Positions 1,120 through 6,462 of a stretch of 31,384 nucleotides of DNA are shown in pieces. The position numbers were made by a program, and so were the translations under genes. The stretch is from a virus, in IMG/VR virus record IMGVR_UViG_3300042934_001329, positions 1-31,384 of that record; one strand, written 5' to 3'. Numbering within the stretch: the first letter of the stretch is position 1; each line of letters begins with the position of its first letter. The notes under the pieces were generated by a model. That model ran no database searches. It saw nothing but the letters and a program-made list of their open reading frames with translations, and was not told the origin of the DNA.

Positions 1120-2514
1120 ATGTATAACTATTTATTCAAATACGTGAGCGGGGATTGTGGTAGCGGTAAAACCTATGCACTTACACAATTGATCCTTAAA
1201 AGTGACGAGAAATTTATTATATCTCAAGGTACACTTAACCTTACTAAACAAACCGCTAAATCTTTAGGGGATTTAGCTAAGCTTATCACTACTGATACAT
1301 CCAGAAACGTACAGGAAGACATCATCGATTTCCTTCTTAACCCTACACATCAAGTGTTGGTAATCACCGATGTTGCTTTTTTGCAGATCCGCGATGCATC
1401 ACTACTGAAAAACTGGCGTATCTATCTTGACGATGTAGTTAATTTTCATAATTTTGTGACAAAGAACACGGAGCTAAAGGAACAAGTAGAAAATAATCTT
1501 TTTCAGAGTTATGAGGCAATCGGTAATAAGCATATCACGGCAAAACCACAGACCGATTTTGACGATGATCTAATTTCCGCACTAGCTAAAGAATTTAGTT
1601 TCGTGAAACAGTATGACTACTTCCTCATGAATGCTGGTTTTTTTGAAAAGATCGGAGCTACTAGTACTTACAAGGAGAAGAAAGGGCAACTGCAAGTGAT
1701 GTCTTGGGTTGACCTAGACCGATATGCCGGGTTGGATATAACATTTCTGGCAAACGATTTCGAAAAAAGCTTGATCTATCTTGCCAGTCCAGAAAAATTC
1801 ATCAAGACCGATTTGCAGTTAAGACAGCGTAAAACGCCCTTAAGTAAGCGTATGCGAGTACATTACTTCAGCGATGTAAATTTAACTGGAGAGTTGCAAA
1901 AGTACTCACCAGAGCAGTTCTATAAAGCCGTAAACTGGGTAAACACAAACCTTAAGGATTACATTTTCACGGTGAATGGAAGCCAGAGTACTAAAACACT
2001 AAACGGAACATATGTACCTCCGAAAAGTCGCGGGATCAATGAATATAAGGATTTTAATAAGGCAGTTTGGTTTGTTAGCTTGAAACCTTCAACAGTTGAA
2101 GTTAAGCAGTGTGAATTGATGTTTGGTCTTACATATCAGCAGATCCTACATGCAAGGCAGAATGAGGAAATGTACCAATTCATATTACGTACTCAGCTTA
2201 GAGATTTTGATAGTGATGAAGTAGTTGATGTTTACGTTTTTGATAAACAACAGGCATTGTATCTTAGTGATAATCCCATCTTTATTGATCTGGGTATTGA
2301 GCAAAGTAACAGTAGTAAAGCAGTTAGTTCGTTTGTCGCTATGAATCTTACCAGTGCGGAAAACTCAGCCTATGGACGGATCACACTGGAAAGATTCCCT
2401 ACTCAAGAATCCTTTAATAAGTGGATGAATAAAAAAGCCCAGCTAGGTCTTACAACAGAAAAGAGGGCTTATTATGAGAACAAGTACAAATCGCTCCAAG
2501 TACTCTCAAAATGA
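1120..2514 (+). CDS. P-loop NTPase with helicase-like motifs
   Basis: I chose the ATG at 1120 (464 residues) because TTGGAG lies nine bases upstream; the alternative ATG at 1096 is buried in a hairpin. A Walker A motif (GDCGSGKT) is at residues ~11-18. A strand ending in Asp-Asp (RIYLDDVV, near residue 106) fits motif II of DEAD-like superfamily 2 enzymes. Arg-containing FILRTQLRDF near residue 356 is in the right place for a motif VI arginine finger. Motifs between these are poorly conserved. It could be a DNA or RNA helicase, or a plasmid-type replication ATPase. No nuclease, primase or initiator domain was recognised. The gene is immediately followed by a long hairpin-rich stretch, which may be its substrate. 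The helicase call is inference; the P-loop is seen directly. Confidence 0.65.
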   Translation: MYNYLFKYVSGDCGSGKTYALTQLILKSDEKFIISQGTLNLTKQTAKSLGDLAKLITTDTSRNVQEDIIDFLLNPTHQVLVITDVAFLQIRDASLLKNWRIYLDDVVNFHNFVTKNTELKEQVENNLFQSYEAIGNKHITAKPQTDFDDDLISALAKEFSFVKQYDYFLMNAGFFEKIGATSTYKEKKGQLQVMSWVDLDRYAGLDITFLANDFEKSLIYLASPEKFIKTDLQLRQRKTPLSKRMRVHYFSDVNLTGELQKYSPEQFYKAVNWVNTNLKDYIFTVNGSQSTKTLNGTYVPPKSRGINEYKDFNKAVWFVSLKPSTVEVKQCELMFGLTYQQILHARQNEEMYQFILRTQLRDFDSDEVVDVYVFDKQQALYLSDNPIFIDLGIEQSNSSKAVSSFVAMNLTSAENSAYGRITLERFPTQESFNKWMNKKAQLGLTTEKRAYYENKYKSLQVLSK

Positions 2515-2662
2515 GAGAAAAACCATCTAATATACTTAGATAATAAATCTCTCAAAACCGAGTGAGATAGCCACAGCAGAGGCGTTATACGCCGATGGCT
2601 AGGCTATCGAAATGACCGTACGAGTCTTAGACGAGATACGGGAATCTATATAATGTTATTAG

Positions 2663-2757
2663 TATAGAGAAGCACAAACGCAAGCGTTCGGCTTGAATTA
2701 ACCAATTTTATGTACCTCGCAGGCGAGCTACTCAAAATTGCATAATTCATACTTTCA
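2663..2757 (+). repeat. 95-bp direct repeat, copy 1
   Basis: Nearly identical to 2930-3023, 267 bp downstream. The two differ by one A in an A-run (CTCAAAATTG against CTCAAATTG) and one T/C change near the 3' end. Each copy carries the small stems CAAGC/GCTTG and CTCG/CGAG. The sharp ends of the similarity suggest a unit that is functionally kept or recently duplicated. Confidence 0.95.
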
Positions 2758-2929
2758 GCATCAATAACCCTACAAAAATGTACCCAAATTACTAAAGGAT
2801 CTATAGGTAAAAGAAGTACAAAATGGCGAGTAAGACAAGTACAAGAGAACGGGCTATGCTCGTTCGATGTACGCAGGATTACGAGATAAGGCGGTTAGCT
2901 TGTCTAACTGCCTTCATAGAAGAGAGATA

Positions 2930-3023
2930 TATAGAGAAGCACAAACGCAAGCGTTCGGCTTGAATTAACCAATTTTATGTACCTCGCAGGCGAGCTACTC
3001 AAATTGCATAATCCATACTTTCA
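2930..3023 (+). repeat. 94-bp direct repeat, copy 2
   Basis: Second copy of the repeat at 2663-2757. As in copy 1, it begins 15-21 nt after a strong hairpin (here the 11-bp stem at 2888-2914). The sequence before each copy is not similar between the two units, so the array is variable hairpins plus a constant tail. Confidence 0.95.
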
Positions 3024-3252
3024 TTTACTAAGTAACTCAAACATGCAGTGTCGGCACGACGTGCCTAAAGTAAGGGCTTTGAGAGTAGCTACCGCACATC
3101 GCTACGCTCGTTTGCTCAGGTCGTCGGCTGTTAAAGCCTCCTATACTTAAGCAAATTCTTACTGAAACAACCCGATCAGGATCATTGCTTTCACTGATGG
3201 TGAATTTCATTCCTACTGAATAAATACTACTCAATCATAAAGAGGACTAATT

Positions 3253-3516
3253 ATGAATATTCTACAACGAGTTATCAATAACTCACATCCTATGGTAAAG
3301 AACTACATCAAAGAGCTAGAAGAGAAGGTATCACTACTGGAAAGCAAGCAAAAGAAGAGTAAAAAAAGACACAGGTTAAATTTTTTCTTAGTAATTACTG
3401 GTCATTACTTGATCATTTCTAAGAATGATATTATTATTTATTTCCATGGGCGTTTAAACCCCAAAGACATTATTTCCTTAGGGTTTTTTATGTATTATTT
3501 TATATTGAAAAAATAA
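3253..3516 (+). CDS. Small coiled-coil protein, probably frame-disrupted at an A-run
   Basis: An AGAGGA ribosome-binding site precedes the ATG. The open frame runs for 87 residues, but only the first ~40 look like a protein: a helix rich in Glu/Lys/Leu (NYIKELEEKVSLLESKQKK, residues ~17-35) that should form a coiled coil. After AGT at 3358-3360 there is a run of seven A (3361-3367). With six A the frame would read GAC ACA GGT and stop at 3377-3379, giving a 41-residue protein. The frame as read continues through a terminator-like hairpin (3456-3489) and overlaps the 3' end of the opposing gene by 22 nt, which is unnatural. The short form is more likely the working product, by mutation, sequencing error or transcriptional slippage. 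Function unknown. Confidence 0.45.
   Translation: MNILQRVINNSHPMVKNYIKELEEKVSLLESKQKKSKKRHRLNFFLVITGHYLIISKNDIIIYFHGRLNPKDIISLGFFMYYFILKK
3456..3489 (+). terminator. Intrinsic terminator between convergent genes
   Basis: AAACCC (3456-3461) pairs with GGGTTT (3481-3486), extended inward by a few A-T pairs and one G-C with mismatches, and followed by six T. It lies inside the last part of the 3253-3516 frame and next to the stop codon of the minus-strand gene, as expected for a terminator that serves both if the plus-strand gene really ends near 3379. Confidence 0.6.
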
Positions 3517-4103
3517 CTAAATTTCTTTACTGAGAATGTAATATAAAAATTTTCTATTAAATTAAAGCCCTGTTCAACCTCACTCTTTTTTGATTCAAGA
3601 ATTCCCAGATTGACGCTTCCATAGGAATTGTAACGCATCAATTCTTCTTGTTTGGCCGCCGTAATGTAAAATATATTAGCACTATAAAAAATTGACCTCA
3701 ATATTGTAATTGCATAATATAATTCATCTTTTTGCTTGGCTTTGATTGACCATCTTTCTATTGTTTCGTTTTTTCCTAAAGTTTTTATCGTAGCTTCAAG
3801 GCAAGCTTCGTATTTTAAACTTAATTCTTTTAGGTAAGTATCATCTTTGAATTCGCAAATTCCTGGGTAATGCACTAATTCAAACATGTAAGCATAATCT
3901 GAGGTGAGTTTGGCTTGTAAATCCTTAGCTATTCTATAATAATCGTCAATCTCTGAAATAATTTCTTCTGCAAGATCCAGACCCCTACCGTGTGATCTTT
4001 GAGAGAACCAAGATTTAGCGTTATAAGCAGCAAACACAGCTGCACTTGCCATGACCACATTGCAAATTGCATTTGTGACGTCCGAACCGTTACCCCAATC
4101 CAT
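3495..4103 (-). CDS. N-terminally membrane-anchored helical protein, paralogue 1
   Basis: A protein of 202 residues from the ATG at 4103. That start is preferred over the ATG at 4115 because the related gene ending at 5220 has the same sequence, CTACATGGA, around its start. Residues ~10-27 (ICNVVMASAAVFAAYNAK) are a single hydrophobic helix followed by W-x-S and a basic stretch, so the remaining ~170 helical residues should sit in the cytoplasm. The N-terminal ~45 residues match those of the 4660-5220 protein: CN, V, A-AV-AA, AK-W-S, then A-E-I/L-I. The C-terminal parts have diverged strongly. No known domain was recognised. The setting, next to a lipoprotein gene and in the opposite direction to the late genes, is typical of lysogenic-conversion or exclusion genes. 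That role is inference. Confidence 0.65.
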   Translation of the reverse strand: MDWGNGSDVTNAICNVVMASAAVFAAYNAKSWFSQRSHGRGLDLAEEIISEIDDYYRIAKDLQAKLTSDYAYMFELVHYPGICEFKDDTYLKELSLKYEACLEATIKTLGKNETIERWSIKAKQKDELYYAITILRSIFYSANIFYITAAKQEELMRYNSYGSVNLGILESKKSEVEQGFNLIENFYITFSVKKFSYFFNIK

Positions 4104-4123
4104 GTAGTAGCTCATTTTTTTGA

Positions 4124-4659: not shown

Positions 4660-5220
4660 TCAGAGAAAAAGTTCGCTATAATGTTTCAATATTTTTTTAT
4701 GCGATTCACAAACTGATTTATAGTACTCGCTTATCTGCCTGTCATATTCAAAGCTATTCTTAAGGCGGAACCTTGTTTCATCTGCTCCAATTGATAATGA
4801 CTCTTCAATCTTGATTGCTAAACTTGAATGAGAACTTATGATATTTTTGAAGTCAGCATTGTTTCGAGGTTTCAAACCCCACAGTTTCATTCTTTCCAAT
4901 GTGGTACTTAATTCTTTAGCTTTTTTCCCATGCTCACTAGCTCTTAAATAAATTGCATTCCATCTTTTTGTAAATTCCAAAGCATCGCCTTGATTATCAG
5001 GATCGGTGTTAATAGTGCTTTTAGCATCTCTTTGCAGATAATATGCTTCCTGCTCAAGCTTGCAAAACTGTTCTATAAGTTCATCTGCAAATTTAAACTT
5101 CCTATCATTCAATTTAGGCGAAAGCCAGTCTTTAGCTTTTGAAGCAGCATACACAGCTACACCAGCAGTGACAGCATTGCAGGCGACACCAAACCAATCA
5201 GGCAGACTACCCAGTTCCAT
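4660..5220 (-). CDS. N-terminally membrane-anchored helical protein, paralogue 2
   Basis: A protein of 186 residues. Residues ~10-26 (GVACNAVTAGVAVYAAS) form one hydrophobic helix, followed by AKDWLS, a Lys/Arg-rich segment and a long helical, highly charged cytoplasmic part that could form a coiled coil. The N-terminal ~45 residues are clearly related to those of the 3495-4103 protein, while the rest is not obviously alignable. The ribosome-binding site is poor (GGAAA ~11 bases upstream), as for its relative. A pair of diverged anchor-plus-variable-body proteins is common among phage accessory genes that act at the inner membrane, but no activity can be read from the sequence. Confidence 0.65.
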   Translation of the reverse strand: MELGSLPDWFGVACNAVTAGVAVYAASKAKDWLSPKLNDRKFKFADELIEQFCKLEQEAYYLQRDAKSTINTDPDNQGDALEFTKRWNAIYLRASEHGKKAKELSTTLERMKLWGLKPRNNADFKNIISSHSSLAIKIEESLSIGADETRFRLKNSFEYDRQISEYYKSVCESHKKILKHYSELFL

Positions 5221-5708: not shown

Positions 5709-5813
5709 TGATCAAAAACAAGCACTTAATGATCAAGGGTGCTATAGCGTATACAACTAAAAATGATCAATAATTGATCTCTAATCAAAAAAAGAGATAA
5801 CAAGGATGATCAA
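5709..5813. repeat. Cluster of TGATCAA repeats upstream of and into the EAL gene
   Basis: TGATCAA occurs at 5730, 5764 and 5807, ATGATCAA also at 5708, and an inverted TTGATC at 5774-5779. The 5764 copy and the 5774 copy form a hyphenated palindrome. Every copy contains a GATC Dam methylation site, giving five in ~105 bp, and the last overlaps the ATG of the next gene. Options are operator sites for an unknown regulator, methylation-sensitive expression control, or part of an origin; the P1 origin also carries clustered GATC heptamers. Confidence 0.6.
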
Positions 5814-6462
5814 TAAAACCTTCTTTGCAAAGCCCACAATGAGCACAGATGGAAAGCTGTTAGGGGTAGAGCTATGCACACAGTTTCATAATGTCGTAAA
5901 CAGTAAGTACTACTTCTACGCGTTATCCATCGAACAGAAACAACGCTTACTGGTAGAACAATTGGATGAAATCAAACGTGCCGCTTCCTGGTTCCGGGAC
6001 TATAGCCTGTACTGCTCTCTGCACGTGGACAAGTATCAGGCACGTCTATGTGCATTCGATGGTGAACTAAAGGACGCTTTGAGGCAGATAGGGGACATCG
6101 TGCGTCTTGAGGTTTCAGAGGATGAAAGTATTGATTATGGTATCAATAAGGCACTACTGAAATCGCTTTCCGATAATGGAAATACTCTTTTCCTAACAGG
6201 GCTTGGTGCAGGCCGGGCAACCCTACTAACGACTAAGCACTTTCATACCGTGAAGCTTGATAGGGCTTTCTATCATCACGAAGTACAGAAGCCTACGTTC
6301 GAAATCCTGATCAAAAACATTAAGCGTTTTTGTGATCGCATCATTGTTGATGGTGTAGATCAAAGGGATGAACTGGCATTGTTGAGAGAGATAAATGTAT
6401 GGGGCATACAGGGCGACCTATATAGATCAGTACCATTCTTAAAAGTTCATACACTACTGTAG
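5806..6462 (+). CDS. Degenerate EAL-domain protein, probably not a c-di-GMP phosphodiesterase
   Basis: A 218-residue stand-alone EAL-family domain with an AAGG ribosome-binding site. EAL landmarks in order are: LGVELCTQF (residues 19-27, position of the EAL signature), LRLEVSED (~100-107), FLTGLGAGRATL (129-140, position of DDFGTGYSSL), VKLDRAF (149-155), IIVDGVD (179-185, position of AEGVE) and IQGDLYRSVP (201-210). The conserved Glu22, Glu105, Lys150 and Gln202 remain. The Asp-Asp metal ligands are replaced by Leu-Thr (130-131) and the Glu of AEG by Asp182. It therefore probably lacks phosphodiesterase activity and may work by protein or c-di-GMP binding. YdiV of enterobacteria, a degenerate EAL protein that binds FlhDC and represses flagella, is the obvious comparison. 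Confidence 0.75.
   Translation: MINKTFFAKPTMSTDGKLLGVELCTQFHNVVNSKYYFYALSIEQKQRLLVEQLDEIKRAASWFRDYSLYCSLHVDKYQARLCAFDGELKDALRQIGDIVRLEVSEDESIDYGINKALLKSLSDNGNTLFLTGLGAGRATLLTTKHFHTVKLDRAFYHHEVQKPTFEILIKNIKRFCDRIIVDGVDQRDELALLREINVWGIQGDLYRSVPFLKVHTLL

Follow-up and report, generated by a model that had tools for sequence, protein, structure and literature searches.

The window analysed here is a virus record of 31,384 nt in which a GpA-type terminase gene is followed by genes of structural type. It contains a gene-free region that, to judge from sequence comparison, is a conserved control element travelling with a helicase gene in prophages of gut bacteria and in defence islands of E. coli. 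This element (2754-3204, together with a front half at 2512-2757) is probably the replication origin of the prophage family and of the related small islands. A bolder proposal, which we make with some doubt, is that it may represent a new class of origin common to the prophage family and to defence islands that have no capsid genes. Such an origin would combine an initiator of the SF2-helicase type, nested palindromes particular to each clade, and opposed priming hairpins in single-stranded DNA in a cassette that can be exchanged; this phage would then carry two fronts that differ in arm specificity.

Hairpins and repeats in the window

The region begins where a helicase-like gene ends (1123-2514, plus strand, 463 aa) and runs to a small gene at 3253. 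The first-pass annotation, made from the letters of the window, held that no gene lies here, and 2515-3252 indeed offers just one TTG ORF of 65 aa on the minus strand, nothing convincing. The helicase-like protein is assigned to phrog_2467 (PHROGs E 3.6e-35) and is the candidate replication initiator. It carries the motifs GDCGSGKT (Walker A), LDDV, and QFILRTQLRDF, and it matches the DEAD and ResIII models weakly. Its motifs are SF2-like only, with no DNA-binding domain identified, and a search of PDB sequences returned only noise.

The complete element occupies 2754-3204. It consists of a repeated unit (unit 2) and a downstream part, and is closed by a border repeat, P0, whose left arm TTCAGCATCA (2754-2763, plus strand) pairs at nine of ten positions with its right arm TGATGGTGAA (3195-3204, plus strand). 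Just inside the left border lies P1 (2779-2820), a nested palindrome in which TGTACCC..AAGTACA encloses TACT..GGTA. Two plus-strand hairpins follow. P2 (2839-2872) has an inner 8-bp stem (2847-2854/2858-2865, one G-U) closed by the 3-nt loop TAT, and P3 (2888-2914) is an 11-bp stem (2888-2898/2904-2914), again with one G-U; both stems are as the first-pass annotation had described them. An A+T-rich gap at 2915-2936, a candidate unwinding region with comparable gaps in other clades, leads to the second copy of a constant tail (2930-3023), which folds better on the minus strand and holds P4 (2937-2961) and P5 (2970-3006), the latter with a stem of 7 bp in the window. Downstream come two small plus-strand hairpins that are kept in relatives: P6a (3053-3065), GGCAC-GAC-GTGCC followed by TAAAGT, where GGCAC/GTGCC alternates with GGCC/GGCC, and P6b (3126-3138), GGCT-GTTAA-AGCC.

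Unit 1 (2512-2757) is an extra, diverged front half. Its palindrome P1' (2512-2554) overlaps the stop codon of the helicase gene and has perfectly complementary arms, TGAGAGA..TCTCTCA around ATCTAA..TTAGAT. It is followed on the plus strand by P2' (2566-2608), recognized from its fold and from its arms GATAGCC/GGCTATC with an inner stem, and by P3' (2616-2641), recognized from the fold of CCGTA/TACGG. Next come an A+T-rich gap (2642-2669, with an A+T fraction of 0.86 over most of its length) and the first copy of the constant tail (2663-2757), with P4 at 2670-2694 and P5 at 2703-2740, which likewise folds better on the minus strand. Unit 1 also has an outer inverted repeat of its own, in which TACTCTCAAA (2501-2510, plus strand) pairs exactly over 10 bp with 3078-3087 (plus strand) and shares the word GAGAG with P1'.

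Thus, the shared tail that the first-pass annotation reported is real: its copies, of 95 and 94 nt, are identical except for a single base and a gap of 1 nt. Its picture of two units, each with two unrelated hairpins ahead of the tail, is also correct as far as it goes, and what it overlooked is the palindrome that opens each unit. Of the two small stems that it placed in the tail, the first has a better drawing, AAGC-ACA-AACGC..GCGTT-CG-GCTT, which is how relatives preserve it. Between the units the P1 arms (TGAGAG in unit 1) and the P2 and P3 hairpins differ, the P4-P5 block is almost identical, and the variable part of unit 1 joins the shared block just 5' of P4. The window element is free of tandem direct repeats; its sole direct repeat is that of the units, spaced by 267 nt.

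Other features of the window deserve mention in their own right. An HNH-endonuclease-like gene (526-1056, phrog_953) lies directly 5' of the helicase gene, a position taken in the phage contig L039 by a different HNH-like gene. On the minus strand, 3495-4115 and 4660-5220 encode two similar small proteins of the WGNGSD../..YAASKAKDWLSP type, which recur in the variable region of the relatives L002, L005, and L039. An EAL-domain-like protein (5806-6462) is preceded by several TTGATC/ATGATC words; words like these occur, along with a related gene, in L024, and they recur in the E. coli islands, which hints at a common regulator. A KAP-family P-loop NTPase gene, possibly a defence gene, ends the record on the minus strand (30104-31384). 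Finally, the tetranucleotide GTAC is about two- to fourfold over-represented, in genes and non-coding DNA alike, throughout the window (1-31384) and in L002-L007, and AGTACT up to about tenfold in the same sequences.

Relatives of the helicase gene and of the element

Relatives were gathered from viral contigs, species genomes, and E. coli. Diverged relatives of the phrog_2467 helicase gene form about a dozen clades, including those on the chromosomes of Phytobacter diazotrophicus and E. coli. The same kind of element lies 3' of the gene in nearly all clades inspected, with a constant order: the left P0 border, P1, P2, P3, the A+T-rich gap, P4, P5, often P6, and the right P0 border, whose motif in most relatives is TNATGATGGTG. 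As DNA queries against phages, plasmids, and E. coli, the elements of the window, L002, and L004 found no match.

What is conserved is pairing. Although most arms differ in sequence among clades, 631 of 670 helix positions are Watson-Crick in a hand alignment; the clades were delimited, and the helices chosen, by eye. Covariation of this kind, which the first-pass annotation had named as the check on its hairpins, implies that the structure is real. The outer arms of P1 are clade-specific (TGTCTC, TGTACC, TGTCCG, TGTGGAA, TGTTAAC, TGTCACA, GCGATATG, and others), remain complementary, and keep an almost fixed spacing to an inner repeat of the TACCT..AGGTA type. In several clades the P0 border and the P1 arms carry one and the same clade-specific word (TGTCC, TGTGGAA, or GCGATA), giving up to four such sites per element.

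The orientation and position of the element are not fixed. In L050-L055 it is inverted with respect to the helicase gene, so that the P4 motif is on the other strand and P1 is beside the far border, and a terminator-like hairpin separates gene from element. In L025 the gene has a border pair, CACCATCATT/AATGATGGTG, and a P1-like palindrome on its upstream side. On a smaller scale, the P2 stem-loop of L007 (480-525) matches the reverse complement of its L006 counterpart exactly, a hairpin inverted within a close clade.

Folding strength and strand polarity

On either strand, folding energies are well below those of dinucleotide shuffles, both for the whole region (z -6.0 on the plus strand, -5.6 on the minus) and for unit 1 (-5.7 and -6.3). 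Taken as a whole, the element folds as well on one strand as on the other (E-/E+ 0.99), where the controls, RNase P and tmRNA of three genomes, lie at 0.85-0.92. Mismatches show no strand bias either, whether in the strand-symmetric fold of the whole element (29 G-T versus 25 A-C) or in columns within clades (25 versus 20). Helices picked by hand give 27 G-T to 6 A-C, a count that is open to selection and carries little weight.

A different picture emerges when the element is divided, a division made post hoc, after the test on the whole element had shown no bias. P2-P3 fold better on the plus strand in 20 of 21 sequences, and P4-P5 on the minus strand in 18 of 18; the sequences are related and amount to some eight or nine independent clades for each block, and the P4-P5 result leans in part on one conserved motif. 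Shuffles that keep composition give mean z values of -1.53 for P2-P3 and +1.79 for P4-P5, with P6 neutral at 0.07, and DNA folding parameters return the same signs (14 of 14 and 12 of 12). The blocks favoring opposite strands face each other across the A+T-rich gap, and this is not the pattern of a single RNA.

The first-pass annotation had offered a choice between a large structured RNA and an origin, citing G-U pairs and the phage RNAs GOLLD and ROOL in favor of the former. Those RNAs resemble the element in being long, gene-free, highly structured stretches of phage genomes. However, no strand of the element is favored throughout, its domains are polarized on opposite strands, and the G-U argument divides with them, P2-P3 preferring the plus strand and P4-P5 the minus. 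Nor does the element keep to one orientation or one side of its gene. Further, Rfam returned no match at the gathering score for the window and L002-L007, and at a permissive threshold the best sub-threshold match reached 18 bits. One RNA of the GOLLD or ROOL kind is thus unlikely, while the other half of the choice, an origin, fits the linkage to the helicase gene and the exchange described below. A C4-like sRNA family of Acinetobacter was considered and dropped; the named hosts of the relatives are Enterobacteriaceae, and the Rfam model for C4 antisense RNA (a phage immunity sRNA) found nothing at either threshold.

Smaller RNAs are another matter. Structured regulatory RNAs, one or two in number and perhaps convergent, could be read from the plus strand over P1-P3 and from the minus strand over P5-P4, acting with or on the helicase. 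The compensated stems, the words conserved in loops, and the asymmetric internal loop (ACA/CG) within P4, all of them typical of RNA, would suit them, as would the terminator-like matches on the minus strand at both P4 copies and the mismatches in hand-chosen P2 and P3 stems (18 G-T to 1 A-C). We nevertheless consider such RNAs unlikely. Rfam and the overall strand comparison speak against them as they do against a single RNA, and a promoter scan of the window region found fewer sites than in shuffles. Perfect P5 stems of 23-25 bp, as in L039 and L059, would be unusual in a folded RNA, and the orientation and position of the element vary.

Islands, apparent cassette exchange, and a candidate origin

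In E. coli, small islands house the helicase gene and the element; they lie at ffs, yggS, ppdD, and thiM, with some 7-10 kb between the flanking genes in most examples opened. Each query, that of the helicase and that of the element, is covered to at least 80% in 49 of 5426 genomes; about thirty further genomes have partial matches. The islands hold an integrase (of the tyrosine or the large serine type), the helicase gene, the element, a resolvase, and defence cargo, with no annotated capsid genes. The cargo is annotated as HamA-type, NACHT, AAA, nuclease, and anti-phage genes, and a DNA-invertase-like gene, a small serine recombinase, is often present.

Two of the partial-match genomes that were opened, L090 and L091, match the last 75 nt and sit at ffs. 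L090 shares identical protein accessions for a DUF2188 protein and a recombinase with the helicase island L089. Where L089 has the helicase, L090 has a protein of 155 aa, homologous to a 169-aa protein of the phage L039 (alignment z 10.6). In this phage and in both islands a small putative Rep gene replaces the helicase gene and the front of the element, and the flank is kept. Repeated, iteron-like words follow the small gene (AATTAGTAC in L039, ATAACCGTAACTTAA in L090), and the hairpin regions after it are alignable between the two. The genes themselves (L039:1278-1787, L090:4246-4713) define a second family of putative replication proteins, of 155-169 aa, in phage and ffs islands; its L039 member has no Pfam or PHROG match.

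In L039 the front is foreign, and the sequence shared with the other elements (P4-P6) sets in immediately ahead of P4, which is also where the two units of the window diverge. P4-P5 therefore looks like the boundary of a module that is exchanged, and this explains the variable-plus-constant units that the first-pass annotation described. Cassettes of an initiator and an origin appear to be exchanged between phages and islands. This exchange is the strongest reason to see a candidate origin here: the element both travels with a putative initiator gene and is exchanged with one.

We infer that the helicase, with or without host factors, would recognize or be guided to the clade-specific P0 and P1 palindromes and would open the A+T-rich gap between P3 and P4. 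This would expose hairpins of folded DNA on opposite strands, P2-P3 on the plus and P4-P5 on the minus. Such hairpins might act as sites of single-strand initiation, from which synthesis would be started in each direction by a primase or primosome; assembly of the PriA type by the host is equally possible. Several points count against an origin. The window element has no DnaA box, and a scan of ten proteins of the window and of selected proteins from the islands recognized no primase gene. The proposed mechanism assigns no part to P6 or to the conserved single-stranded words near P4 and P6, nor does it account for two front units. The GC skew of the window shows no clear turn at the element and is uninformative.

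Border inverted repeats flank the element, both orientations of it occur, and the islands carry a DNA-invertase-like gene. The element might instead be a regulatory site bound by protein, a site resembling those for partition, or a target of that small serine recombinase, with the border repeats allowing the segment to flip. This is improbable. The border arms differ strongly among clades with no fixed crossover core seen, the sampled E. coli islands are all in one orientation, and such a site has no need of strand-polarized hairpins. Still less probable is that the stretch from the helicase gene to the variable cargo genes is a mere run of bidirectional terminators and repeats in decay. The element does lie at the edge of a variable gene region, and minus-strand terminator-like matches exceed those in shuffles (3 versus 0.6), but order, arms, and borders are kept across many clades, the element lies upstream of the gene in L025, and L050-L055 have a separate terminator-like hairpin before it.

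As a candidate origin, the element is best compared with IncQ oriV. RSF1010, an IncQ plasmid, replicates with RepA, RepB, and RepC together with ssiA and ssiB (PMC6925257, PMC4434180). Set beside descriptions of that system, the element shares the proximity of a helicase and a stretch rich in A+T, and its putative recognition sites and its candidate initiation hairpins on either strand would correspond as well. By this analogy the element may work like an IncQ oriV, its exposed hairpins recruiting priming as RSF1010 does with RepA, RepC, and ssiA/ssiB, but it is not a proven member. It has the palindromes P0 and P1 in place of the tandem iterons that RepC binds in IncQ, and several hairpins per side; no RepB'-type primase was found among the proteins scanned here, which are part of the gene set.

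The islands, judged by their genes, also resemble PLE, P4, and PICI satellites in outline, having an integrase, a replication-like gene of their own, and defence cargo. The P4 satellite has alpha and PLE has RepA; the E. coli islands have the phrog_2467 helicase instead. Integrase-only defence islands of unknown mobility have been mentioned (PMC10121019), and they possibly correspond to the islands found here.

If the element is an origin, then a prophage family whose replication was previously unannotated would have a testable origin and initiator. Its presence would explain how small anti-phage islands of E. coli could replicate although neither conjugation nor capsid genes are annotated in them, and it would provide a simple enterobacterial system for opposed single-strand initiation. 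The helicase gene with its element, or the alternative small Rep gene, would also be a marker for finding more such islands.
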